From Falsiroseomonas algicola (GTDB lineage: Bacteria; Pseudomonadota; Alphaproteobacteria; Acetobacterales; Acetobacteraceae), in the NCBI RefSeq assembly GCF_011040385.1, contig NZ_JAAIKB010000014.1:1-64000 (forward strand): a DNA stretch of 64,000 bases, in the 5' to 3' direction. The notes beneath the pieces are model-generated. The model made no database searches. It was not told where the DNA came from and was given only the letters and a program-made list of their open reading frames with translations. Position numbers and translations under genes: made by a program. Shown piece after piece: positions 39,714-53,633 of this stretch (the first letter of the stretch is position 1; every line of letters begins with the position of its first letter).

Positions 39714-41045
39714 TTACATCTCGTAGCGGTTCGGCGGCACCGGCAGGCCCAGATGGTCCCGCAGCGTCGTGCCGGCATATTCCGTCCGGAACAGGCCCCG
39801 CCGCTGCAATTCCGGCACCACCTGGGCGACGAAGCGCTCCAGCGGCGCGGGGTAGTAGGGGGAGAGCAGGGTGAAGCCATCGCAGGCCCCCGCCTTCACC
39901 CATTGCTCCATCGTGTCGGCGATCGTCGCCGGCGTGCCCACCAGCAGGTGGTGGCCGAGTGAGGTGGCGAGGTACCGCGCCACCTGGATGATCGACAGGT
40001 TCTCCCGCTTAGCCTTCTCCACTAGGTGGCGCTGCCGCGCCTGGGCGGCGTTGGAGAGCGGCAGCGGCGGCAGGGGCGCATCCGGCGGGTAGGCGAAGAT
40101 GTCGAGGTCCCCGCAGAGACGGGCCAGCAGGCGCATGGAATTCTCATCCGCCAGCAGGCCCTGCAACTCGCGGTAGCGCGCCTGCGCTTCCTCCTCCGTC
40201 GCCCCGATGATGGTCATGAGGCCGGGCATGATCTTCACATGGTCCGGGTTCCGCCCGTGCTTCGCCGCCCGCGCCTTGAGGTCCGCGTAGAAGGCCTGCG
40301 CCTCCCCGAGGTCAGACTGGGCCGTGAAGACCAGGTCGGCCGTGCGGGCGGCGAGTTCCATGCCGGGGCCGGAGGAGCCCGCCTGGGTCACGATCGGCCG
40401 CCCCTGAGGGCAGCGCGCGATGTTCAGCGGCCCGCGGACGGCGAAATGCTTGCCGCGGTGGTTCTGCAGGTGGACCTTGGCGGTGTCCACATAGATGCCG
40501 CTGTCCTTGTCCCGGATCAGCGCGCCATCGCCGAAGCTGTCCCACAGCGCGGCCATGACGTCGAAGAACTCCTCCGCGCGCTCATAGCGCTCCGCATGCG
40601 CCATGTGGTGGTCGGCGCCGAAATTGCCGGCCTCGTCCTCGATCTGGGAGGTGACGAGGTTCCACCCCGCCCGGCCGTTGCTGATGTGGTCGATGGAGGC
40701 GAAGCGGCGGGCGAGGTTGTAGGGCTCGTTGTAGGTCGTCGTCGCGGTCGCGATCAGCCCGATGCGCTGGGTGACGATGGCGAGGGCGGAGAGCAGCGTC
40801 GTGGGCTCCAGGTAGGCGGTGCGGCCCTGCCGCGGGCGATAGGGCCCGGCGCCGTCGAGGGACGCGCTGCCATTCACCGCCACCGTGTCCTGGAAGAACA
40901 CCGCATCGAGCTTCCCGCTCTCCGCGACCTGCGCGATGTGGGCATACTGCCGAAAGTCCATGTCGCATTCGGGCACGGCTTCCGGGTGGCGCCAGCCGGC
41001 GGAATGGCTGCCCGGCGTGAACATGAAGGCGGCGAGGTGCATCAT
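39714..41045 (-). CDS. LLM-class flavin-dependent monooxygenase (NtaA/SnaA/DszA type)
   Basis: This is a 443-residue FMNH2-dependent two-component monooxygenase. Landmarks are a GWRHPEA region near the start, [53 protein letters not shown] and [22 protein letters not shown]. This subgroup oxidises N-, S- or ring-containing small molecules such as nitrilotriacetate or thiophenes and needs a separate flavin reductase, which is not seen nearby. The start is ATG 41045, with another ATG at 41042 and a TTG at 41054 overlapping hyuA. It is the last gene of an eight-gene operon. Confidence 0.88.
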
Positions 41046-41050
41046 GGCTT

Positions 41051-43078
41051 TCAATCCCGTCGCAGCAGCAAGGCGCCGCTGGGCAGTGCCTCCGCCGTCC
41101 AGCCGGGCGGCAGCAGGGTGGTGGCATCGAGCTGGGTGATGATGGCGGGGCCGGCGATGCGGTCGCCGGCGCCGAGCGCGGCGCGGTCATGGAGCGCGGC
41201 ATCCGCCGTGCCGCCAGGCAGGTGGACGGGATGCGTGCCGATCGGCGCGGCGCCGCGCCCGGGCGGCAGGGCCTGGGCGGCGGGGGGCGGCAGGCTGCCG
41301 ACGGCTTCCAGCCGCAGCGTCACGATCTCCGCTCGGCCCTCCGGCAGGTCGAAGCCGTAGAGCGCGCGGTGCGCCGCGGCAAAATCGAAAGCGGCGTGGT
41401 CGAGGCCGCGCCAGGGAACCGGAAGCTCCGCCCCCTGGCCGGCATAGCGCATCAGCGCGACGGGCGTGGTAGCGCGAGCGTCGGGCGGGATCGCCTCCTC
41501 CTCGAACCAGGCGATGGCTTCCTGCGCCAGCGTCTTGAAGGTGGCGTCCAGGGCGGCGGCATCCTCGGCCTGCCTGGGCAGGACGGAGCGGCTGAACTCC
41601 GCCCGCATGTCGGCATGCAGCAAGCCCTGCGCGCAGAGCACGCCGGGGGAGGGCGGCACCAGCACGCGCGAAATGCCGAGCATCGCGGCCAGCGCGCAGC
41701 CGTGCAGCGGCCCCGCGCCGCCGAAGGGCACGAGCGTGAAGTCGCGCGGATCATGCCCACGCTCGACGGAAACGACGCGCAGCGCGCCGACCATGTTGGA
41801 ATCGACGACGGCCAGGATGCCGCGCGCCGCCTCGTGCAGCGGCAGGCCCAGCGGCTCAGCGACGCCCTTGCGCACGGCGTCCTCCGCCGCCGCCACATCC
41901 AGCGTCATCCGCCCGCCGAGTAGCGAGGGCGGGAGATGGCCGAGCACGACATGCGCATCCGTCACGGTGGCGAGGGTGCCGCCCCGGCCATAGCAGGCCG
42001 GGCCGGGTTGCGCGCCCGCACTCTCCGGCCCCACGGCCAGTGCGCCGTCCCGCGTGACGCGCGCGATGGAGCCGCCGCCGGCGCCGATCGTCACCATGTC
42101 CAGCATCGGCAGGGGCAGCGGCCAGTCGCCGACGGCGCCGCGCTGCGTCAGCGCGATGGTGCCGTCCTTCATCAGGCAGATATCGGCGCTGGTGCCGCCG
42201 ATATCGACGGTGAGGATGTTCGGGATCCCCGCTGCCGCCGCCACCGCCCGTGCGCCGACCACGCCCGCGGCAGGGCCCGACAGCGCGGTCACGGCCGGCG
42301 CACGGCGGATGGAGGCCGCGCCGGCCACGCCGCCATTCGACTTCATCAGCAGCAGTGGCGCCGCGATGCCGTCCTCCGCGATGCGCCGCTCCAGCCTTTC
42401 GACATAGGTGGAGACGGCCGGCATGACCTGCGCATTGAGGATGGCGGCAAGGGAGCGTTCGTATTCGCGCACCACCGGCAGCACATCGACGGAAGCGGTG
42501 ATCGCGACACCGGGCAGGGCTTCGCGCAGCATCGCCGCCACGCGGCGTTCATGCGCGGCATTGGTGAAGGCGTGCAGCAGGCAGATGGCGATGGCGGTGA
42601 CGCCGGATTCGCGGCAGGCCTCCGTGGCGCGCGTCACGCTGGCCTCATCCAGTGGCACCAGCACGCTGCCATCGGCAACGATGCGCTCCGTCACCTCGAA
42701 GACGCGCGACGGTGGCACGGGGCGCTTCGGCTTCACCCAGGCATGCAGGTTGGCGCGGCGCGGGATGTCCTGCCGCCCGATCTCCAGCACGTGGCGGAAG
42801 CCCGCGGTGGTGATGAGGGCGGTGCGCGCGCCCTTGCCTTCCAGGATCAGGTTCGTCGCGATGGTCGTGCCGTGCAGCACGCGCCCGATGCGCCCGGCCT
42901 CCTCCCGCGCCGTCTCCAGCGCCAGGCGCACACCGGCCTGGAAGGCCTCCGACGGATCATGCGGAGTCGAGGGCGTCTTCGCCGTCCAGGCGCGGCCCGT
43001 GGCGGCATCCTGCAGGGTCACGTCGGTGAAGGTGCCGCCGATATCGACCGCGACCGAGAGCGGGTCAGTCGAGGGCAT
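41051..43078 (-). CDS. hyuA: Hydantoinase/oxoprolinase subunit A
   Basis: This is a 675-residue ATP-grasp-independent, actin-fold hydrolase subunit. The phosphate loop VAVDIGGTFTDVTL is at the N-terminus. HGTTIATNLILEG, the second phosphate motif ILTVDIGGTSADICLM, GAGGGSIA and VPFGGAGPLHGCALA follow in the order expected. With HyuB it should open a cyclic amide, hydantoin- or oxoproline-like, using ATP. Two ATGs are close, 43084 and 43078; the latter is preferred because GGGAG lies 8 nt upstream. The gene begins inside the 3' end of hyuB. Confidence 0.9.
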   Translation of the reverse strand: MPSTDPLSVAVDIGGTFTDVTLQDAATGRAWTAKTPSTPHDPSEAFQAGVRLALETAREEAGRIGRVLHGTTIATNLILEGKGARTALITTAGFRHVLEIGRQDIPRRANLHAWVKPKRPVPPSRVFEVTERIVADGSVLVPLDEASVTRATEACRESGVTAIAICLLHAFTNAAHERRVAAMLREALPGVAITASVDVLPVVREYERSLAAILNAQVMPAVSTYVERLERRIAEDGIAAPLLLMKSNGGVAGAASIRRAPAVTALSGPAAGVVGARAVAAAAGIPNILTVDIGGTSADICLMKDGTIALTQRGAVGDWPLPLPMLDMVTIGAGGGSIARVTRDGALAVGPESAGAQPGPACYGRGGTLATVTDAHVVLGHLPPSLLGGRMTLDVAAAEDAVRKGVAEPLGLPLHEAARGILAVVDSNMVGALRVVSVERGHDPRDFTLVPFGGAGPLHGCALAAMLGISRVLVPPSPGVLCAQGLLHADMRAEFSRSVLPRQAEDAAALDATFKTLAQEAIAWFEEEAIPPDARATTPVALMRYAGQGAELPVPWRGLDHAAFDFAAAHRALYGFDLPEGRAEIVTLRLEAVGSLPPPAAQALPPGRGAAPIGTHPVHLPGGTADAALHDRAALGAGDRIAGPAIITQLDATTLLPPGWTAEALPSGALLLRRD

Positions 43079-44831
43079 CGGCATAGCTCCCGCGATGGAA
43101 GGCGCGCGTGGCGGGGCGAGAGGCGCGCAGAGTTGCGGTCGCGGCTTCATCGATGGCGCGGCCGGCGATGACGACGCCGTAGTCGGCCCGGGCGGAAGCG
43201 GCGCTGACCAGGCCGCCCAGCACATCCTCCAGCACCGCCTCCGCCGGCCGGTCGAAGGGATGGCCGCGGCCGCCGCCGCCGCCCGTCTCGATCCGCAGGA
43301 TGTCGCCGCGCACCACGCGGTTGCCGTCGGAGAGCGGCTTCAGCACGCGTTCATTCGGCAGGCCGGGGTTCAGCACCACGCGGCCCGGGCGGCCGGACTG
43401 CCCGCCGGCGGCGCCCCAGGGCGGGTTCTCGACACCGTCGAGCCGAACGGCGAGAATCGATTCCTCCGCCATCACCTCATATTCGCGCACGATCCCGCAT
43501 CCCCCGCGGAAGCGCCCAGGCCCGCCGCTGTCGATGTTGAGGCCGTATTCGCGGAGCCGGACAGGATACTCGGTCTCCAGGAACTCGACCGGGTAGTTCT
43601 CCTGCGCCACGAAATAGACGCCATCGATCCCATCCGCGAAGCCGCGCGCGCCATAGCCGACGCCGAGGCCGTCGCTCATGAGAAAATGCTTTCCGCCGAT
43701 GGTGCCACGCAGCAGCATGATGACATAGGCGGCATGGGCGGCGGGGGCTTCGCCACCGGCGACGGAGACGAGGCCGTTCAGCGCCGCCAGCATGCGCATC
43801 ATGGTCAGGCCGCGCATGCCGAGCGCCGCGGGAAAGCGGGGCTGCAGCAGCGAGCCTTCGCGCAGGATCACCTCATCCAGCGATCGCGGCCCGCCGGCAT
43901 TCACGACCTGCGTCGGATCGCCGCCGAGGAAATAGAGGCCGAGCGCCATGCCCGGCACATCGGGGTTCATCAGGAAGTTCACCGGGCCGGCCGACTGGTC
44001 ATCCGTCTCCGACGCATCGAGCACGAAGCGGTCTTCCGGCGTGCGCGTCAGCGCGAAGCGGAGCCGGAGCGCGCCGCTGCCATGGCCATCGCCGTCGATG
44101 CGATCGGTGAAGCGATGCGTGCCGACCGGGAAGGTTTCCATCAATCGCCCGCGCACCGTATCCCGCGTGCGGGCCAGCAGCTGCGCCAGCGCATCGGCCA
44201 GCACATCGGCGCCGAAATTCGCCGCGATCTCCCTCATGCGCGCGACGCCCAGCTCCACGCTCGCCATCAGCGCGCGGGTGTCGCCCTGGGCGGTGCGGGG
44301 ATAGCGGGAGTTGCGATAGAAGATGGAGAGCGCGGCCTGGTTCACCACGCCGTCGCGGATCAGCAGCGTCGGCGGGATGATGACGCCCTCGTGGAAGATC
44401 TCCGTCGCATCGGGGCTGATGGAGCCGGGGCGGAGCCCGCCGATATCGGCGAAATGCGCCCAGCCCATGACGAAGGCGACTCGCTGGCCATCCACGAAGA
44501 CCGGCGCCAGGAAGACCTGGTCGTTGGAATGGCTGACGGCGCCGCGCGATCCGTAGCAGTCATTGTACCAATAGAGGTCGCCGTCCCGGATCGTCCCGAT
44601 CGGAAAGTCGCGGAAGACGGGGCCGCAGATGTCGCCGAAGACGGGGACGTTGGAGCCCACCGCCATGACGCCATCGGCATCGAAGAGGGCGGTGTAGAAA
44701 TCCTTCTTCTCCCGGATGAAGGCGGACATGGCGGTGCGCTCGATCAGCGCCTCCATCTCCGCCTGCGCGGCGCGGATGGCGCCGCGGATGATCTCGAGCG
44801 TGACGGGGTTGCAGGGGCGTGGCGTGGTCAT
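43065..44831 (-). CDS. hyuB: Hydantoinase/oxoprolinase subunit B
   Basis: This is a 588-residue partner of HyuA. Typical stretches are TLEIIRGAIRAAQAEMEALI, REKKDFYTALFDADG, WYNDCYGSRGAVSHSNDQ, VMGWAHFADIGG and the glycine-rich NIDSGGPGRFRGGCGIVREY near residue 475. The last stretch, GGGGGRGHPFDRPAEAVLEDV, is the conserved C-terminal signature. The start at ATG 44831 is chosen; GTG 44840, which overlaps the upstream ABC gene stop, is also possible. Coupling to a dedicated ABC importer suggests that the ring substrate is imported rather than made. Confidence 0.9.
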   Translation of the reverse strand: MTTPRPCNPVTLEIIRGAIRAAQAEMEALIERTAMSAFIREKKDFYTALFDADGVMAVGSNVPVFGDICGPVFRDFPIGTIRDGDLYWYNDCYGSRGAVSHSNDQVFLAPVFVDGQRVAFVMGWAHFADIGGLRPGSISPDATEIFHEGVIIPPTLLIRDGVVNQAALSIFYRNSRYPRTAQGDTRALMASVELGVARMREIAANFGADVLADALAQLLARTRDTVRGRLMETFPVGTHRFTDRIDGDGHGSGALRLRFALTRTPEDRFVLDASETDDQSAGPVNFLMNPDVPGMALGLYFLGGDPTQVVNAGGPRSLDEVILREGSLLQPRFPAALGMRGLTMMRMLAALNGLVSVAGGEAPAAHAAYVIMLLRGTIGGKHFLMSDGLGVGYGARGFADGIDGVYFVAQENYPVEFLETEYPVRLREYGLNIDSGGPGRFRGGCGIVREYEVMAEESILAVRLDGVENPPWGAAGGQSGRPGRVVLNPGLPNERVLKPLSDGNRVVRGDILRIETGGGGGRGHPFDRPAEAVLEDVLGGLVSAASARADYGVVIAGRAIDEAATATLRASRPATRAFHRGSYADALD

Positions 44832-44836
44832 GGTCC

Positions 44837-45811
44837 TCACACCAAATGGCAGGCGGCCATGCGGCCGGGCGCGATGCTGCGCGGCGCCGGCGCTTCCTCC
44901 GCGCAGCGGGGCATGGCGAGGGGGCAGCGGTCGCGGAAGGCGCAGCCGCTGGGCTGGTTCACCTGGTCCGGCAGCCCGCCCTGGATGGGCAGCGCGCCGC
45001 GATCCTGGTCCACGCGCGGCACCGGCACGGCGGCAACCAGCGCGCGGGTGTAGGGATGCGCGGGGGCGGCGATGATCTCCGCCGTCGGGCCGGATTCCAC
45101 CACGCGGCCGAGATACATCACCGCCACCTCCTCGCAGACATAGCGGATCAGGGCGAGGTCGTGGCTGATGTAGATGGCGGCCAGCTGCAATTCGTCCCGC
45201 GCGCGGCGCAGCACGTTCAGCACGCCGGCGCGGACGGAGACGTCGAGCATCGAGACCGGCTCATCCGCGATGATGGCGCGGGGATGCGCGACGAGGGCGC
45301 GGGCCAGCACCACGCGCTGCAACTGCCCGCCGGAGAGTTCATGCGGATGGCGGTCGAGATAGGCCTCGGCGGGGTCGAGCCGGACGCGCGCCATGGCTTC
45401 GCGGATGCGGGCATCCTGCTGGTCCGGCGGGATGCCGAAGTTGCGCAAGGGCTCCGTCAGCGTGCGGCGGATGGTGAAGCGGGGGTTCAGCGCGTCGAAG
45501 GGGTTCTGGAACACCAGCTGCACGCTGGACCGGAAGGGCAGCAGCGCCTTGCCGCGCAGCGCCGTCACATCCTGGCCGTCGAACAGCACACTGCCGCTGG
45601 TCACTTCCTCCAGCCGCAACAGCAGCCGCGCCGTGGTCGTCTTGCCGCAGCCGCTTTCGCCGACGATGCCGAGCGCGCGGCCCGCGCCGACGCCGAGCGT
45701 GACGCCATTGACGGCGCGCACCATCGGCCGGTGGCCTCGCAGCAGGTCGGAGAGGCGGCGGGAGGCCGGGAAGGCCTTCGTCAGGTCGTTCGCGGCGATG
45801 ACGGGCGTCAT
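44837..45811 (-). CDS. Peptide/nickel-type ABC transporter ATP-binding protein (DppF/OppF-like)
   Basis: This is a 324-residue ATPase. Walker A is GESGCGKT (51-58), a Q-loop VFQNPFDALNP follows, the signature is LSGGQ (159-163), and Walker B IIADEP with VSMLD lies near 180-190. The C-terminal oligopeptide-transporter extension with paired Cys (SGCAFRDRCPLAMPRCAEE) is present and in related proteins binds an Fe-S cluster. It overlaps the second ATPase gene by 4 nt and forms the heterodimeric motor of the importer. Confidence 0.9.
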   Translation of the reverse strand: MTPVIAANDLTKAFPASRRLSDLLRGHRPMVRAVNGVTLGVGAGRALGIVGESGCGKTTTARLLLRLEEVTSGSVLFDGQDVTALRGKALLPFRSSVQLVFQNPFDALNPRFTIRRTLTEPLRNFGIPPDQQDARIREAMARVRLDPAEAYLDRHPHELSGGQLQRVVLARALVAHPRAIIADEPVSMLDVSVRAGVLNVLRRARDELQLAAIYISHDLALIRYVCEEVAVMYLGRVVESGPTAEIIAAPAHPYTRALVAAVPVPRVDQDRGALPIQGGLPDQVNQPSGCAFRDRCPLAMPRCAEEAPAPRSIAPGRMAACHLV

Positions 45812-46821
45812 GCGACGACACCCGCCCAGGTCTCGGCGCGCGCGGCTTGCGGGCGCAGTGCGGCCGCCTCCGCGCTGCGCCAGCAGGCGGCGTGATGGTC
45901 GGGCGCGTCCTCGACCAGGGGCGGGTCCTCGGCACAGCGCGCCACCGCGAAGGGGCAGCGGGCGGCGAAGCGGCAGCCCTTGGGCGGGTTGAGCAGGGAG
46001 GGGGGAGAACCCTCGATCGGGACGAGTTCGCCGCCCGCGCGTTCTAGGTCCGGAAAGGCGTTCATCAGGCCCATTGTGTAGGGGTGCAGCGGCGCCTCCA
46101 GCACGGCTCGGACGGGCCCGGATTCGACCACGCGGCCGGCATACATCACCACGACGCGGTCGCAGGCATAGGCAACGACGGCGACATCATGCGTCACCAG
46201 GATCATCGCGAGCCCCAGACGCGCCTGAAGCTCCTTCATCACGTCCAGCACCTGGCGCTGCACGATGACGTCGAGCGCCGTCACCGGTTCATCCGCGATC
46301 ATCAGCGCGGGATCGAGGGCCAGCGCCAGCGCGATGGAGGCGCGCTGGCGCATGCCGCCGGAGAACTGGTGCGGCCAGTCGCGCAGCCGCTTGGGGTCGA
46401 GGCCGACGAGGGTGAACAGCGCCTCCGCCCGCGACGCCGCCGCGGCGCGCGACAGCCCGCCTCGTTCCGTCAGCACTTCCATCAGCTGCGCGCCGACGCG
46501 CTGCACCGGGTCCAGCGCATTCATCGCGGTCTGCGGCACGAAGGAGAGGCGGCGCCAGAGCAGTTCCTTCCGTGCCTTGTCGGGCAGCGTCACCAGGTCC
46601 TGGCCCTCGAACACCGCCGATCCCGCGGCGATGCGGGCGCTGCGCGGCATCACGCCCATCAGCGCGCGGCCGAGCGTCGACTTGCCGCAGCCGCTTTCGC
46701 CGACGAGGCCCACGATGGAGCCCGCCGGCACGTCGAAGCTCGCGCCATCCACGGCGCGCACCGGGCCGGCCGCGGTGGCGTAGTGGACGGCGAGGTCGCG
46801 GACGGTGAGGAGGCTCGCCAT
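45808..46821 (-). CDS. Peptide/nickel-type ABC transporter ATP-binding protein (DppD/OppD-like)
   Basis: This is a 337-residue ATPase with Walker A GESGCGKST (41-49), signature FSGGMRQR and Walker B MIADEPVTALD. The C-terminal extension KGCRFAARCPFAVARCAEDPP has the Cys pattern of OppD/DppD proteins. The start at 46821 overlaps the stop of the permease gene by one base (TGATG); a longer frame to 47157 is rejected as it lies within that permease. It pairs with the DppF-like subunit. Confidence 0.9.
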   Translation of the reverse strand: MASLLTVRDLAVHYATAAGPVRAVDGASFDVPAGSIVGLVGESGCGKSTLGRALMGVMPRSARIAAGSAVFEGQDLVTLPDKARKELLWRRLSFVPQTAMNALDPVQRVGAQLMEVLTERGGLSRAAAASRAEALFTLVGLDPKRLRDWPHQFSGGMRQRASIALALALDPALMIADEPVTALDVIVQRQVLDVMKELQARLGLAMILVTHDVAVVAYACDRVVVMYAGRVVESGPVRAVLEAPLHPYTMGLMNAFPDLERAGGELVPIEGSPPSLLNPPKGCRFAARCPFAVARCAEDPPLVEDAPDHHAACWRSAEAAALRPQAARAETWAGVVA

Positions 46822-47681
46822 CAATCCCCCAGCTTCGGAAAGAGCAGCTTCTCCGACCCCCGGCTGACGAGGAAGCCGGCGAGGACGAGGGCCACGATGC
46901 AGAGGCCTGGCGGGATGAACCAGTTCCAGGCCTCCCGCGACAGGGCCTGGTTGGCGAAGGCGTCCTGCAGCATCAGGCCCCAGGAGATGGCAGCGGGATC
47001 GCCGAAGCCGAGGAAGGAGGCCGAGGCCTCCGTCAGGATCGCCCAGCCCACCGCGATCGATCCGTAGAGTGCCGCGAGCGGCGCCACCTGCGGCGCGATG
47101 TGGACGAAGATGATGCGCATGGGCGAACAGCCCGTGACGCGCGCGGCCTCCACCCATCCCCGCTCCCGCAGCGAGAGGACCTGGGACCGGATGACGCGGG
47201 CCGTGTTGGGCCAGAGCATCAGCGCAACGGAGGCAACGAGCGTGACGGTACCGGGCCGGGTCAGCGCCGAGATGACGAGGACGAACGGAAGGAAGGGCAG
47301 GCCCAGCACGATGTCGGAGAGCCGCATGATGATGCGGTCCACCCAGCCGCCGAGATAGCCGGCCAGCAGCCCCATCAGCGAGCCCAGGAACACCACGCAG
47401 AAGGCGGCGGTGACGCCGACCGTCAGCGCGGATCGCGTGCCATGGACGAGCTGGGAGAAGATGTCCCGCCCGCCCGCCGTGGTGCCGAGGTAATGCGTGG
47501 CCGAGGGCGGCAAATAGCGCGCCACGCGGTAGGCGCCGCTGAACAGGATCTGCCGCGGATCATGCGTCGCGATCTGGTCGGCAAAGATCGCGAGCACCAG
47601 GAACAGCAGGTAGATGCTGATTCCCACCAGCGCGAAGGGCTGGCTGCGCAGGAAGCCGAGGGTTGCTCTAGCGGCGCGCAC
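46821..47681 (-). CDS. Peptide-type ABC transporter permease (DppC-like)
   Basis: This is a 286-residue inner-membrane permease with about six helices and the EAA loop region EAARVTGCSPMRIIFVHIAPQ that docks on the ATPases. The DppC-type ending ISWGLMLQDAFANQAL is also seen. The GTG at 47681 (overlapping the dppB-like stop by 14 nt) is preferred because GAGGGTG precedes it; the ATG at 47711 would give 296 residues and a 44-nt overlap. Confidence 0.88.
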   Translation of the reverse strand: MRAARATLGFLRSQPFALVGISIYLLFLVLAIFADQIATHDPRQILFSGAYRVARYLPPSATHYLGTTAGGRDIFSQLVHGTRSALTVGVTAAFCVVFLGSLMGLLAGYLGGWVDRIIMRLSDIVLGLPFLPFVLVISALTRPGTVTLVASVALMLWPNTARVIRSQVLSLRERGWVEAARVTGCSPMRIIFVHIAPQVAPLAALYGSIAVGWAILTEASASFLGFGDPAAISWGLMLQDAFANQALSREAWNWFIPPGLCIVALVLAGFLVSRGSEKLLFPKLGD

Positions 47682-48645
47682 CGACGGACACCCTCGGATC
47701 GAGCCAGGCATAGAGCAGGTCGGCCACCATGTTCATCGTCACCAGCACCGCCGCGATCAGGATGAAGGCGCCCTGCGCCAGCGGATAGTCGGCACCCTGC
47801 ACGGCGGAGACCAGCACGCGGCCGAGCCCGGGCCAGGAGAAGACCGTCTCGATCACGACATTCCCGCCGAAGGAACTGCCGAGGCCGAGCGCAAAGGCCG
47901 TCGCCACCGGCAGCAGCGCATTGCGCGCGGCGTGGCGCATGACGATCGCCCAGCGGGAGAGGCCCTTCATGCGCGCCATGACGATGAACTCGTCATTCAG
48001 CACTTCCAGCATGGTGGCGCGCATCAGCAGCAGCGGCAGCCCTTGCAGGTAGAGCGCCAGGGTCAGCGCCGGCAGCACGAGGTGCCAGAGGAAATCGGCG
48101 GAGGTCAGCCGCGCCCATTCGGAGGTGAATTCCGACCCGGCCTCATTCGCGCCGCTTGACGGAAAGATGCCCCAGGCGAAGGAGAGCCAGGCCAGCAAGA
48201 TCATGCCGAGCCAGAATTCCGGCGCGGCGCGGGTGATCAGCGCGGCGGGGATGGCGATGCCCTCCGTCACGCTGCCGCGGGCAAAGGCGAGGAAGGCGCC
48301 GGCGATGATGCCGAAGGCATAGGCGATGACCAGCGCCGTCACCGTCAGCGCCACCGTGTTCGGCAGCGCATCCAGCAGGATGTCCAGCACCGGCTTTTTC
48401 TGCAGGAAGGAGACGCCGAGGTCGCCCCGCAGCAGGCTGCCGAGGTAGAGCACGTATTGCTCCGGCAGCGGGCGATCGAGCCCGAAGGAGGTCAGCAGGG
48501 CCGCGCGCATCTCCTCGCTGAAGGATTCCGAGAGGAAGTTCAGCGTGGGATCGCCCGGCATCAGCCGGAACATGACGAAGGTCAGGGACGCCACCGCCCA
48601 GAGGACGAAGATGGCGTGCCCCAGCCGCCCGAGGACGCGCTTCAT
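47668..48645 (-). CDS. Peptide-type ABC transporter permease (DppB-like)
   Basis: This is a 325-residue permease with six helices. The N-terminus ends in FVMFRLMPGDPTLNFL, the typical DppB periplasmic start, and the docking loop is ARMKGLSRWAIVMRHAARNALLPV. NVVIETVFSWPGLGRVLVSAV is a hallmark of the family. Its ATG overlaps the stop of the binding-protein gene (ATGA). Confidence 0.9.
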   Translation of the reverse strand: MKRVLGRLGHAIFVLWAVASLTFVMFRLMPGDPTLNFLSESFSEEMRAALLTSFGLDRPLPEQYVLYLGSLLRGDLGVSFLQKKPVLDILLDALPNTVALTVTALVIAYAFGIIAGAFLAFARGSVTEGIAIPAALITRAAPEFWLGMILLAWLSFAWGIFPSSGANEAGSEFTSEWARLTSADFLWHLVLPALTLALYLQGLPLLLMRATMLEVLNDEFIVMARMKGLSRWAIVMRHAARNALLPVATAFALGLGSSFGGNVVIETVFSWPGLGRVLVSAVQGADYPLAQGAFILIAAVLVTMNMVADLLYAWLDPRVSVGARR

Positions 48646-50321
48646 TGATAGGGCGTCGTCGTTTCCCGTACGCCGCTGGGATAGTGCAGCCGGTTGCCGA
48701 CCATGCGGTAGCCCGCTTCCTGCAGCAGCCGCCGCGCGCCCTCCAGATTGCCGCCGGGCACGCGGCCCTCGATCCCGCGGTCGTGCCAGGCGGCGAGCGC
48801 TGGGGAGACCATGGAGTTGGCGGGCACTGCCTGGCCGTTCCAGGCGGCGCCGGCCATCATCTCCCGATTCACCGCTGCAGAGAGCGCGCGGCGGAAGGCG
48901 GCATCGTTGAAGGGGGGGCGGCGGAGGTTCATGCCGACGAACTGGAAGCCGATATCGACCTCCTCCCGCACCGCGATCATGTTCGGCAGCTGACGCGCCA
49001 TGGTCTTCACCAGGTCGGGGTCGCCAAAATAATCGGCGAGCACGTTGATCTCGCCACGGCGCAGCGCGCCGAGCGTCGCTTCCGTGTTGAGGATGATGCG
49101 CATGATCCAGCGATCGGCCTTGGGCCGCGCCCAGTGGTTCGGGTTCGCCTCCAGCACCACTTCCTCATTCACGCGGGAGCGCACGAAGCGGTAGGGGCCG
49201 GAGCCGACGGGCCGTTCCTCGACGAAGGATTCCAGGTTCTGCGGCCGGTTCAGGTAGTCCTGCACCACCGGCGCCCAGATGCGCTTGGAGACGATGTTGA
49301 GCTTGGCCAGCACGGCGATGCGGAAGGCGGCGTCGGGGCGCTTCAGCACGAAGCGCACGGTGCGGGCATCGGTGGCGGTGACGGAGGCGATGTTCTGTAC
49401 GAAGGGCTTGTACATCGGCGATTCGTCGCCCATGCCCGGCACCTCGTAGGAGAAGACGACATCCTCCGTCGTCACCGGCGTGCCGTCATGATGCGTCATG
49501 CCCTGGCGGATGACGCAATCGATGGTGAGCGGATCCACCTGCGTCACGCGCTCCGCCGCCCAGGGCTGCGGCAGGCCATCGGGGCCGACGCGCATCAGGC
49601 GATCCCAGACCAGGTCCGTCACCCAACTGTCCGGCGCGCCGCTGACATAGAAGGGGTTGGTCGCCTTCACCGGTTCCGTGGAGTTGACAATGATGTCGCG
49701 CTGGCGGCCGGTGGGCTGCAGGCTGATCCAGTTCCAGAAGTTGCGGATGCCGAGGCCGGCCTGGTTCACCGCGCTGCCTTCCGCGAAGACCTGCTTGTTG
49801 AAGGCCTGCAGATTCACGGGGTGGACCAGGAAGGCATAGGGCTGGTCGCGGTTCACGACCTCCTGCACCTCCCGCACGATGGCGGCGCGGCGGGCCTGGT
49901 CCATCTCGCTCCGCTGCGCCTCGGCCAGGCGGTCGTAGTCGGGGTTGCTGTAGCCGACGAAATTGTAGCCCGTCGCGATGTTGGCGGAGTGCAGGAGGTT
50001 GTAGACCATCTCATCGGGGTCGCCGCGTTCCGGCCGGCCGACCATCTGCCACATGGTGAAGTCCCAGCGCTGGCGTTCGTACCAGACCACCTGGCTCATC
50101 TGCTGGTTGGGCAGGGGGCGCAGCTCCACCTGCAGGCCGAGCTTGCGCCATTCCTGGGCGATCAGCTCCGCCGCCTGATAGGCCGCCGGCGCCGCGGCCT
50201 GGGGTCGGGTGAGCAGCACCAGGGGGCGGATGGGATCGCCGGGCGCGCCCTGCGCCAAAGCGGGCAGGCGCGGCAGGGCGGTCAGCGCGGTGGCGGCGAG
50301 CAGGACGGAGCGGCGGTTCAT
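48642..50321 (-). CDS. Family 5 extracellular solute-binding protein with an apparently circularly permuted domain order
   Basis: This is a 559-residue periplasmic receptor with signal MNRRSVLLAATALTALPRLPALA. Residues about 30-200 read like the C-terminal third of normal DppA/OppA proteins: AELIAQEWRKLGLQVELRP, RWDFTMWQMVG, YSNPDYDRLAEAQRS, then NRDQPYAFLVHPVNLQAF. Residues about 210-300 then read like the usual mature N-terminus, with LVWDRLMRVGPDGLPQPW and GMTHHDGTPVTTEDVVFSYE. The protein ends at ARRLLQEAGYRMVGN, a point normally followed by the segment found here at the N-terminus. No second copy of that segment exists. The start at 50321 has GAGG 9 nt upstream; an ATG at 50330 is possible. 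First gene of the importer/hydantoinase operon. Confidence 0.85.
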   Translation of the reverse strand: MNRRSVLLAATALTALPRLPALAQGAPGDPIRPLVLLTRPQAAAPAAYQAAELIAQEWRKLGLQVELRPLPNQQMSQVVWYERQRWDFTMWQMVGRPERGDPDEMVYNLLHSANIATGYNFVGYSNPDYDRLAEAQRSEMDQARRAAIVREVQEVVNRDQPYAFLVHPVNLQAFNKQVFAEGSAVNQAGLGIRNFWNWISLQPTGRQRDIIVNSTEPVKATNPFYVSGAPDSWVTDLVWDRLMRVGPDGLPQPWAAERVTQVDPLTIDCVIRQGMTHHDGTPVTTEDVVFSYEVPGMGDESPMYKPFVQNIASVTATDARTVRFVLKRPDAAFRIAVLAKLNIVSKRIWAPVVQDYLNRPQNLESFVEERPVGSGPYRFVRSRVNEEVVLEANPNHWARPKADRWIMRIILNTEATLGALRRGEINVLADYFGDPDLVKTMARQLPNMIAVREEVDIGFQFVGMNLRRPPFNDAAFRRALSAAVNREMMAGAAWNGQAVPANSMVSPALAAWHDRGIEGRVPGGNLEGARRLLQEAGYRMVGNRLHYPSGVRETTTPYQ

Positions 50322-50505: not shown

Positions 50506-52245
50506 ATGCCGATCACCGCCGACGAACAGGGTTTCCTCGATGCCGTCACGCTCGATGCGCCCTGGGACCTGGTTACGACCTTCGCGGGCATGCATCGCTG
50601 GAAGCCCGATGACGTGAACAAGGCGGCCGCGGTCATCGTGGATCGCCTGCGCCGCCACGGCATCCCGGTGGAGGTGCACCAGCCGGAGATCTGCCTCTCG
50701 ATTCCGCATGATGCCTCCGTCACGGCCAATGGCGTGCGCTACCGCGCCAAGCCGCCCTCCTCCGCCCTGCACGTGCCGGAGGGACGGACGGCGAAGCTGG
50801 TCAAGCTGAAGGCGAACCCCAAGGCGCTGCGATCCTACAGCCGCGATATCGGGCTGCTCTTCGGCGGATCGATCGGATCGGTGGAGGAGGTGCGCCGGAA
50901 GATCGGCGGCTGCATCGTGGTGATGGAGGGTTTCGGCAATCCGGCGCTGACCAGCCTGATCGAGGAATGGGGCGGCGTCGGGCTGATTGCCGTGAACCCC
51001 GGCATCGACATCCATTGGGGCACCTGCACCACCATCTGGGGCAGCCCGGACCTGCACGATCTGCCGCGCAAGCCGAAGATCCCCGTCGTGGCGGTCAACA
51101 ACCCCGATGGCCAGGCGCTGATGGCGCTGGCGGAGGCGGGCGGGGAGGCGACGATCCGCACGGTGATGGAGGAGGGCTGGTTTCCGCAATCCATCCCCGT
51201 CGTCACCATTCCCGGCACGGAAGACCAGCAGAAGTTCGTCCTGCTGCACGGCCATTACGACAGCTGGGAAGTGGGCGTCGGCGACAATGCCACGGGCGAT
51301 GCGACCATGCTGGAGATCGCGCGCGTGCTCTGGGCGAAGCGCGGATCGCTGAAGCGCAGCGTGAGGATCGCCTGGTGGCCGGGGCATTCCACCGGTCGCT
51401 ATGCGGGCTCCACCTGGTTCACCGATGCCTTCGCGCAGGACCTCGATGAGAACTGCCTGGCGCAGATCAATTGCGACAGCCCGGGCTGCCGCTGGGCGAC
51501 CTCCTACCACCAGACCCGCGCCTTCACGGAAAGCGCCGCGCTGGCCGCGGGCGCGATCCGCGACGTGGTGCCGGATGCCGACATCAAATGCATCCGTCCG
51601 CCCCAGGCCGGCGACTACTCCTTCAACAATATCGGCCTGCCCAGCTTCTTCATGCTGTCCAGCACGATGCCGGAGGCGCTGCGGCGGGAGAAGAACTACT
51701 ACGACGTCTCCGGCTGCGGGGCGAACATCGCCTGGCATACGGAGAACGACACGCTGGAGATCGCGGATCGCGACATCCTGCTGGTGGACATGAAGATCTA
51801 CCTGCTGTCGGTGCTGCGCATCGCGAATGCCGAGGTGCTGCCCTTCGACTGGTCCGCGACCTGCGACGAGTTCGATGCGACCATCGCGCAGTATGAGGGT
51901 GCCTCGAAGGGCATGGCGGACCTTTCGCCCGCGAAGGCGGCAGTGGCGGGGCTGCGGGAGGCGCTGGCCGGGCTGGGTGGCGCGCCGATCGCGGCGCGCA
52001 ACGCGGCGGTGCAGGACCTGTCGCGCATCCTCGTGCCCATCAACTACACGCGGGAGGCGCGCTTCGCGCATGACCCCGCCTATACGGTGCCGCCGCTGCC
52101 GACGCTGGCCGTGGCGGCGGAGCTGCCGGCGCTGGATGCCGCGCTGGCGAAGCCCGCCATGGTGGAGCTGATGCGCGGCCAGAACCGCTTCGTGGCCGCG
52201 CTGCGGGCCGCCACGCGCCGCGTGCACCAGGCGACCGGCGCATGA
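50506..52245 (+). CDS. M28-family (PA-domain) metallopeptidase-like protein with altered active site
   Basis: This is a 579-residue protein without a signal peptide. A PA-type insert (about 110-230) precedes the peptidase fold. The first metal motif LLHGHYDSWEVGVGDNATG provides H250, D252 and D260. The catalytic EE of M28 enzymes (xxEExGLxGS) is replaced by WWPGHSTGRYAGSTWF, so the general base is missing and a His stands nearby. Later YYDVSGCGANIAWHTENDTLE could supply the last His ligand. It may be a hydrolase with changed chemistry or a non-catalytic homologue. It is divergent from the importer operon and overlaps the M20 gene. Confidence 0.8.
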   Translation: MPITADEQGFLDAVTLDAPWDLVTTFAGMHRWKPDDVNKAAAVIVDRLRRHGIPVEVHQPEICLSIPHDASVTANGVRYRAKPPSSALHVPEGRTAKLVKLKANPKALRSYSRDIGLLFGGSIGSVEEVRRKIGGCIVVMEGFGNPALTSLIEEWGGVGLIAVNPGIDIHWGTCTTIWGSPDLHDLPRKPKIPVVAVNNPDGQALMALAEAGGEATIRTVMEEGWFPQSIPVVTIPGTEDQQKFVLLHGHYDSWEVGVGDNATGDATMLEIARVLWAKRGSLKRSVRIAWWPGHSTGRYAGSTWFTDAFAQDLDENCLAQINCDSPGCRWATSYHQTRAFTESAALAAGAIRDVVPDADIKCIRPPQAGDYSFNNIGLPSFFMLSSTMPEALRREKNYYDVSGCGANIAWHTENDTLEIADRDILLVDMKIYLLSVLRIANAEVLPFDWSATCDEFDATIAQYEGASKGMADLSPAKAAVAGLREALAGLGGAPIAARNAAVQDLSRILVPINYTREARFAHDPAYTVPPLPTLAVAAELPALDAALAKPAMVELMRGQNRFVAALRAATRRVHQATGA

Positions 52246-53633
52246 ACCGCGAGGCCGCCATCGCCGCTGCGCGGGCGATGTTCGAGGATGGCAGCTTCCT
52301 GGCGATCCTGGAGCGCCGCATCGCCTGCCCGACCGCGAGCCAGGAGCCCGGTGCCGGCCCGCATCTGCTGCGCTACCTCGAGCAGGAGATGGCGCCGGAC
52401 CTAACGCGCATCGGCTTCACCTGCACGGTGCATCCGAACCCCACGGGCAAGGGCGGCCCCTTCATGATCGCGCGCCGCGTGGAGGACGCTGGGCTGCCGA
52501 CGCTGCTGACCTATGGTCATGGCGACACGGTCCAGGGCCTCGACAAGGAATGGCATGAGGGGCTGTCGCCCTGGACCATCACGCAGCGCGGCGACCGGCT
52601 CTATGGCCGCGGCATCGTGGACAACAAGGGCCAGCACAGCGCGAACCTCGCCGCGCTGGAGGCCGTGCTGAACACGCGCGGGAAGCTGGGCTTCAACGTG
52701 ACCTTGCTGCTGGAGATGAGCGAGGAGGTGGGATCGCCCGGCATCGACGAATTCGCCCGCGCGCATCGCGATGAACTCAAGGCCGATGTGCTGATTGCCT
52801 CCGACGGGCCGCGGCTGGTGCCGGATGTGCCGGCGCTGGTGCTGGGCACGCGCGGCGCGCTCGCGCTCGACCTGCGCGTGAAGTACCGCGACGGCGGGCA
52901 TCATTCCGGGAACTGGGGCGGGCTGCTCGCCAATCCCGGCATCCGCCTCGCGCATGCCATCGCCAGCATCATCGACCGCGACGGCAAGGTGCTGGTGCGG
53001 GACCTGGTGCCGGAGCGCATCCCGAACAGCGTGCGCGCCGCGCTCGCCTCCTGCCGCGTCGATGGCGGGGCGGATGGGCCGGAGATCAATCACTGGTGGG
53101 GCGAACCCGGCCTGACGGCGGCGGAGAAGGTCTTTGGCTGGAACACCTTCGAGGTGCTGGCCTTCGAATGCGGCCACCCAAGGGCGCCGGTCAACGCCGT
53201 GCCGCCGGAGGCCTTCGCCCGCTGCCAGATCCGCTACACCGTGGACCGCCATCCCTCCACCTTCATCCCCGCCATCCGCAAGCACCTGGCGGAAGCCGGC
53301 TTCGACGACGTGACGGTGGAAGCGGTGAAGCAGGGCGCGGAATGGGCGGCCACGCGCATGGACCCGGATGGCCCCTGGCCGCAGATGGTCGCGGCATCCG
53401 TGCGGGAGACCACGGGCAAGCAGCCGATGATCGTGCCGAATGCCGGCGGGTCGCTGCCGAACGACACCTTCGCGGTCACGCTGGGGCTGCCGACGGTCTA
53501 CCTGCCGCATTCCTACACCGGCTGCTCGCAGCACGCGCCGAACGAACACGCGCTGCGGCCGCTGATGCGGGAGGGCATGGAGATCATGGCCGGGCTGTTC
53601 TGGGACCTCGGCGAACAGCCCTGGCCAGCGTGA
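52242..53633 (+). CDS. M20-family metallopeptidase
   Basis: This is a 463-residue dinuclear-zinc amidohydrolase/peptidase. Metal ligands and catalytic residues are readable: H93 and D95 in YGHGDTVQG, D127 in GRGIVDNKGQ, E161/E162 in EMSEEVGSPG, and a late His in LPHSYTGCSQHAPNEH. The dimerisation lid sits between about 200 and 320. M20 enzymes cleave dipeptides, N-acyl amino acids or carbamoyl amino acids, the last being products of hydantoin ring opening. It overlaps the M28-like gene (ATGA) and probably works on the substrate delivered by the divergent importer. Confidence 0.9.
   Translation: MNREAAIAAARAMFEDGSFLAILERRIACPTASQEPGAGPHLLRYLEQEMAPDLTRIGFTCTVHPNPTGKGGPFMIARRVEDAGLPTLLTYGHGDTVQGLDKEWHEGLSPWTITQRGDRLYGRGIVDNKGQHSANLAALEAVLNTRGKLGFNVTLLLEMSEEVGSPGIDEFARAHRDELKADVLIASDGPRLVPDVPALVLGTRGALALDLRVKYRDGGHHSGNWGGLLANPGIRLAHAIASIIDRDGKVLVRDLVPERIPNSVRAALASCRVDGGADGPEINHWWGEPGLTAAEKVFGWNTFEVLAFECGHPRAPVNAVPPEAFARCQIRYTVDRHPSTFIPAIRKHLAEAGFDDVTVEAVKQGAEWAATRMDPDGPWPQMVAASVRETTGKQPMIVPNAGGSLPNDTFAVTLGLPTVYLPHSYTGCSQHAPNEHALRPLMREGMEIMAGLFWDLGEQPWPA

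Follow-up and report, generated by a model that had tools for sequence, protein, structure and literature searches.

The closest described relatives of the receptor considered here are the solute-binding proteins (SBPs) of the DppA/OppA/AppA/NikA type (PF00496; structures 1dpp, 1xoc, and 8efz), which have Opp/Dpp-type permeases and oligo_HPY ATPases encoded adjacent to them. Known structures of family 5 SBPs have the canonical chain order, with the N-terminal part ahead of the C-terminal third. Engineered receptor halves, which are neither natural whole receptors nor members of family 5, reportedly bear on the tolerance of new ends, as far as the accessible part of that work goes.

A natural circularly permuted ABC-type ligand-binding protein has been described outside family 5. 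According to the accessible part of its description, TpMglB-2 (Tp0684) of Treponema, designated 'Type Ic/Cluster Bc', was shown to bind glucose (PMC4990184). By the same text its fold is Type I/Cluster B and the moved element is the initial strands of the N-lobe sheet; the moved part matches poorly in sequence, and such proteins occur in treponemes and Gram-positives (PMC4990184).

The window analyzed here, a 64,000-nucleotide stretch of Falsiroseomonas algicola DNA, encodes an SBP (P0001) that is homologous to the DppA/OppA/AppA/NikA type over nearly its full length once its chain is rotated. Like that type, P0001 has Opp/Dpp-type permease and oligo_HPY ATPase genes beside its own, but its chain is rotated at the turn before the C-terminal third, and the permuted proteins, in contrast to canonical family 5 proteins, have a conserved Arg-containing loop beside the position of DppA Asp408. 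The P0001 group resembles TpMglB-2, as far as the accessible text of that report extends, in that the permutation is natural and also found in relatives, but differs in matching family 5 SBPs by both sequence and fold and in having another cut (PMC4990184). The original prediction knew of no described family 5 example. None emerged from the literature searched, in which no permuted family 5 receptor was described in the title or start of the abstract among the matches listed; that search covered the open literature. Thus TpMglB-2 is a precedent outside family 5, and the conserved, functional-looking circular permutation within family 5 is apparently undescribed.

We put at about 0.93 the probability that P0001 is the exported receptor of an Opp/Dpp-type ABC importer that was permuted once, long ago, that has kept the two-lobed fold, and that hands its ligand, most likely an N-blocked, acidic, or cyclic amino-acid derivative, to the permeases and ATPases encoded downstream.

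Chain order of P0001

The gene and the parts of its product are as follows.

48642..50321, minus strand: complete gene for the circularly permuted family 5 SBP (559 aa, P0001), from Pfam, PDB-chain matches, the rotation scan, and AlphaFold2
50250..50321, minus strand: apparent signal peptide region, residues 1-24 (MNRRSVLL...ALAQ), without a lipobox cysteine, by eye and from a regular-expression survey of relatives
49713..50228, minus strand: residues 32-203, relocated, the counterpart of the C-terminal third in canonical family 5 SBPs, from the AppA match and rotation scan
50013..50039, minus strand: GRPERGDPD, residues 95-103, from the profile alignment to 1dpp and conservation in the structure alignment (A2)
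49704..49712, minus strand: junction of the canonical C terminus to the canonical N terminus, about residues 204-206, from frame comparison
48666..49706, minus strand: residues 206-552, the counterpart of the N-terminal two thirds in canonical family 5 SBPs, from Pfam, the AppA match, and the rotation scan
48645..48707, minus strand: new C-terminal tail past the helix ARRLLQEAGY, a hairpin RMVGNRLHYPSG..., ending at the shared cut point, from the translation, the model, and frame comparison

The translation of this real reading frame, 559 residues and a stop, contains the motifs quoted in the original prediction in the order in which it gave them. P0001 scored 226.1 bits against Pfam SBP_bac_5 (PF00496), above the gathering threshold of 32.4, and is thus a family 5 SBP by score; there were two matched stretches, the better aligning residues 251-545 with profile positions 2-285 of 368 (E 9.5e-67). 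The score against the NCBIfam DppA equivalog NF043070 was 90.9 bits, below its cut-off of 1005 bits.

The order of the matched parts is the reverse of the canonical topology. In a phmmer search of PDB chains, residues 209-540 of P0001 aligned with positions 23-346 of the Bacillus subtilis AppA chain (1xoc) and residues 51-175 with positions 377-496. All three alignments printed (1xoc, 5u4o, and 5isu) had two such out-of-order blocks, the second 5isu block being weak. The C-terminal part of family 5 SBPs corresponds to residues ~32-203 of P0001 and the N-terminal part to ~206-552, which bears out the proposal that the C-terminal segment directly follows the signal peptide and that the canonical N terminus begins at about residue 210; the N-terminal ~200 residues are therefore not unrelated to the usual C-terminal segment, an outcome that the proposal had named as fatal to it. 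The genome itself is rich in family 5 SBPs, with 81 stretches matched by the P0001 query (E<=0.001). Only P0001 spans both parts; the other 80 stretches match the N-part or the C-part alone, as in canonical proteins.

For a rotation scan, 31 canonical SBPs encoded elsewhere in this genome were made into a profile, and the mature chain was rotated in 5-residue steps with the best single match scored at each. Unrotated P0001 scored 230 bits over profile positions 19-341 of 498. Rotation by 155-180 residues raised the score to 305 bits (+75), with one match covering positions 19-479 of 498. The best rotation of four of four canonical controls outside the profile was zero or within ~10 residues of zero. 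Nine of 11 other permuted proteins gained 36-78 bits, the two without gain being the very divergent L129 and L130, and three of four haloarchaeal permuted proteins gained 37-56 bits, L152 showing no gain. Truncation of P0001 was rejected, since after rotation the chain fills almost all of the canonical profile. The same coverage indicates that, at profile resolution, nothing is duplicated or missing, so that the order is rotated, as had been proposed.

Four divergent permuted proteins, L129 (G045), L130 (G468), L152, and L153, have long N- and C-terminal extensions, and L153 is the only one of them that gained on rotation. They may represent distinct, old branches whose partner surface differs.

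The permuted chain was modeled as it stands by AlphaFold2 from alignment A2, which comprises 78 permuted proteins (that of the window and those of 77 of 80 fetched loci). A2 leaves out L054, L066, and L078, whose frames are broken or cut; L011-L024 and L105-L109 are also outside it. The model had a mean pLDDT of 92.0 and a pTM of 0.87; a single-sequence structure prediction of P0001 had a pLDDT of 32.9. The confident model of the permuted chain answers in part the other outcome that the original prediction had named as fatal, a model in standard domain order. Foldseek matched the AlphaFold2 model to family 5-type SBPs at a probability of 1.00 over 352-401 columns, with TMq 0.43-0.52 (50 rows shown). 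Partial matching is expected of a sequential aligner when one segment is out of order, and is not proof of permutation. Both parts of the family 5 fold are predicted to be complete in P0001, as judged from the pTM and from the coverage of the profile by one match after rotation. A profile of the junction region detected no solved permuted chain among 49 distinct PDB sequences matched at E<=0.001. In all 49 the best stretch ended at or before position 168 of 232, short of the junction, and in 48 it lay at chain position 336 or later, the remaining one being a 229-residue fragment (3o6p). Circular permutation is supported as the correct reading of P0001 by the sequence blocks, the rotation test with its canonical controls, the confident fold, and the homologues with the same order that are described below.

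Distribution and origin of the permuted order

The search for homologues with the same segment order that the original prediction had called for found them in many bacterial and haloarchaeal genomes. Fifteen of 59 genomes, the source included, matched at E<=1e-60 in a search of relatives, although L023 lies on a cut contig and L022 is partial with an internal stop (one TGA). Searching a species-level genome collection with the junction yielded 193 relatives; the 80 retained include Roseomonas/Falsiroseomonas, Reyranella, Rhizobium, Neorhizobium, Nitratireductor, Roseibium, and Rhodobacteraceae. The permuted frame is carried by 79 of these 80 loci, two of them (L054 and L078) as pieces of broken frames; the remaining locus (L066) is cut by a contig end and falls below the length limit. 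The 530-residue permuted protein of L109, used as a query against a plasmid collection, met 50 records, 43 of which matched over >=80% in one piece (29 haloarchaeal and 14 alphaproteobacterial, counted from the listing). Plasmid records with the permuted order came from Neorhizobium, Ketogulonicigenium, Nitratireductor, and haloarchaea. The other seven records match only residues 184-507 of L109, mostly the N-terminal part, and are probably canonical proteins. All five fetched haloarchaeal loci that were checked (L105 and L151-L154) have the permuted order, the C-part match of L152 being weak (15.4 bits).

In even samples, 18 of 385 genomes from across the class matched at E<=1e-15, 13 with the permuted order (the source included) and five with the canonical order. 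Only three of 398 sampled across the phylum matched at E<=1e-20, the source genome alone having the permuted order and the other two the canonical one. The counts of permuted proteins (13/385 and 1/398) are lower bounds, since at most seven candidates were scored per genome. One kept locus (L075) is from a metagenome-assembled genome (MAG) labelled Trueperaceae, where the permuted SBP is 60% identical over the junction and is accompanied by transporter genes; this could be a transfer or a misplaced contig.

The source is a draft genome of 90 contigs, and a rotated order might in such a case be an artefact of assembly or gene modeling, or a recent rearrangement private to this genome. The chance of this is negligible, because the same order occurs in independently assembled isolates and MAGs and in the plasmid records, which refutes an artefact. 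As judged by their sequences, permuted family 5 SBPs are a conserved group in bacteria and archaea and not a one-off.

The permuted proteins share their cut. The 30 + 4 permuted frames printed open immediately ahead of the strand corresponding to IRxLxLL and close at the hairpin corresponding to xLHYP or shortly beyond it, except for C-terminal extensions in L129, L130, L152, and L153. FastTree was run on the N-part, on the C-part, and on the two combined; each time the permuted proteins (43 of 43) grouped together, separate from 42 canonical tips (support 0.99-1.0), and with four haloarchaeal proteins added, their part boundaries set by hand, 47 of 47 formed one group (support 0.98-1.0). The permuted tips were hand-chosen as representatives (44 of 112 frames, one lost as a duplicate), and the canonical set is small, drawn largely from a single genome (42 of 46 frames, four cut or overlapping ones being left out). 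Rooted on a canonical tip, the trees are informative about grouping but not about direction; the derived state of the permuted order follows from the canonical order of the known family 5 structures.

Independent permutations might have recurred at the same favored turn, since the cut sits in a turn that may tolerate new ends, and L129, L130, L152, and L153 are extended at both ends. However, the same cut in the printed frames and the single, well-supported group in the sample, together with an Arg before DP or EP that is common to 43 of 43 tree members besides the four added haloarchaeal ones, make repeated permutation quite improbable. Another possible origin is the joining of parts of two different SBP genes, with no single gene being rotated. 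The canonical sister group of the permuted proteins does differ between the N-part and C-part trees, and the accessible part of the TpMglB-2 report shows its authors raising such an origin for their own protein (PMC4990184). Yet each part alone groups the permuted proteins together, the two pieces cover the canonical profile once without duplication, and sister-group differences on stems as long as these are weak evidence. A two-gene fusion is thus unlikely.

In the rotation of a single chain that we favor, the old termini would have been joined through a short link and the new termini would fall within the turn that separates the 'LHYP' strand of the hairpin from the strand 'IRxLxLL'. The C-terminal third would then be made first, and the mature chain would fold to the same two-lobed family 5 structure. 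It is likely that a single permutation, ancient enough for alphaproteobacteria and haloarchaea to have it in common, gave rise to a separate class of family 5 receptors of several specificities. The rotated order would mark this class, as would, in most aligned members, a conserved Arg loop at the ligand site. That this class has gone unnoticed so far is perhaps because domain annotation ignores segment order.

Gene neighborhood, ligand site, and anchoring

The permuted SBP gene is the first of a minus-strand run of genes, with two peptidase genes on its other side. Assignments are from domain search.

47668..48645, minus strand: ABC permease 1 (BPD_transp_1 + BPD_transp_1_N)
46821..47711, minus strand: ABC permease 2 (BPD_transp_1)
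45808..47157, minus strand: ABC ATPase 1 (ABC_tran + oligo_HPY), true start probably internal to the open frame
44837..45811, minus strand: ABC ATPase 2 (ABC_tran + oligo_HPY)
43065..44840, minus strand: hydantoinase B/oxoprolinase (HyuB-like)
41051..43225, minus strand: hydantoinase A/oxoprolinase (HyuA-like), true start probably internal
39714..41054, minus strand: luciferase-like monooxygenase, end of the gene run
50506..52245, plus strand: M28 peptidase, divergent
52242..53633, plus strand: M20 peptidase

Much of this arrangement recurs in relatives. Among 85 loci (L025-L109), the two permeases were matched in 80 and 78, the two ATPases in 77 and 76, M28 in 66, HyuB in 56, and HyuA in 53, M28 being the commonest non-transporter neighbor sought; these counts take a match anywhere in the locus, and some loci are short contigs. 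Other neighbors of permuted SBPs are creatininase (L105 and L151), gamma-glutamylcyclotransferase (L108), and a member of the mandelate racemase family (L151). Specificity probably varies among members, as their neighbors differ. In Reyranella-type loci a gene similar to the luciferase-like monooxygenase gene is upstream of the SBP gene. In two loci, L072 (4200-5825, 9668-11581) and L076 (2315-3940, 7782-9695), an SBP of canonical order, accompanied by its own transporter genes, is encoded directly upstream of the permuted SBP gene, and in the C-part tree these canonical SBPs fall within the group that is sister to the permuted proteins.

Nei-Gojobori dN/dS was 0.03-0.20 against six close relatives, indicating purifying selection, and 0.48 against the more distant L033, for which silent changes may be saturated. 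Broken frames of the permuted SBP were seen in single genomes or MAGs (L054, L078, and L022). These few broken relatives might be explained if the protein had decayed or had a role other than transport, such as that of a sensor or chaperone, while retaining the fold, but the low dN/dS with close relatives and the frequency of permease and ATPase genes in the 85 loci make this highly improbable. As an importer receptor, P0001 would be exported, close on its ligand, and pass it to the permeases and ATPases of the genes immediately downstream.

Most of the permuted proteins aligned carry a conserved Arg loop near the predicted ligand site. GRPER (residues 95-99) and DPD are identical in 78 of 78 rows of A2. 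In a profile alignment to 1dpp, Arg96 of P0001 falls at DppA Asp408, a place that adjoins a gap and where the register is uncertain. In DppA, Asp408 (mature numbering) binds the dipeptide through its free amino group. A DppA with D436R, the same residue in precursor numbering, appears in the title of 8z1z. Arg96 is not kept everywhere, being Ala in L024 and L108, and the canonical paralogues L137, L139, and L149 have Gly-Arg at its place. Arg99, the Arg three residues before the P of DP/EP, is more widely conserved. Among the four added haloarchaeal proteins, L151 has its equivalent, in L152 and L153 the Arg is displaced, and L154 lacks it. Permuted proteins usually have 1-3 more residues in this loop than canonical paralogues do, although it is as long in the canonical L097, L144, and L148. 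The hydantoinase/oxoprolinase neighbors and this one motif suggest that the ligand may be an acidic, N-blocked, or cyclic amino-acid derivative, which would be processed by the products of the neighboring hydantoinase/oxoprolinase and peptidase genes.

Tethering is one reason proposed for the permutation of TpMglB-2 in the accessible part of its report (PMC4990184). A regular-expression survey found no lipobox-like pattern in 96 of 99 permuted family 5 frames, and two of the three patterns found look spurious by eye, so tethering is unlikely as a general reason for this permutation and was rejected as such. Five haloarchaeal members (L105 and L151-L154) do have lipobox-like N termini. A lipid anchor there would adjoin the relocated segment, unlike in canonical receptors.

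Implications for two-lobed receptors

Family profiles such as PF00496 can mask a change in topology. The permuted SBPs offer a natural permutation kept in two domains of life and thus a ready case for examining how chain order relates to folding, export, and domain closure of two-lobed receptors. The many canonical paralogues in the same cell provide controls for the permuted receptor. Permutation moves the signal-peptide or anchor end to another part of the protein, and the permuted receptor is a natural scaffold with new ends for sensor design.
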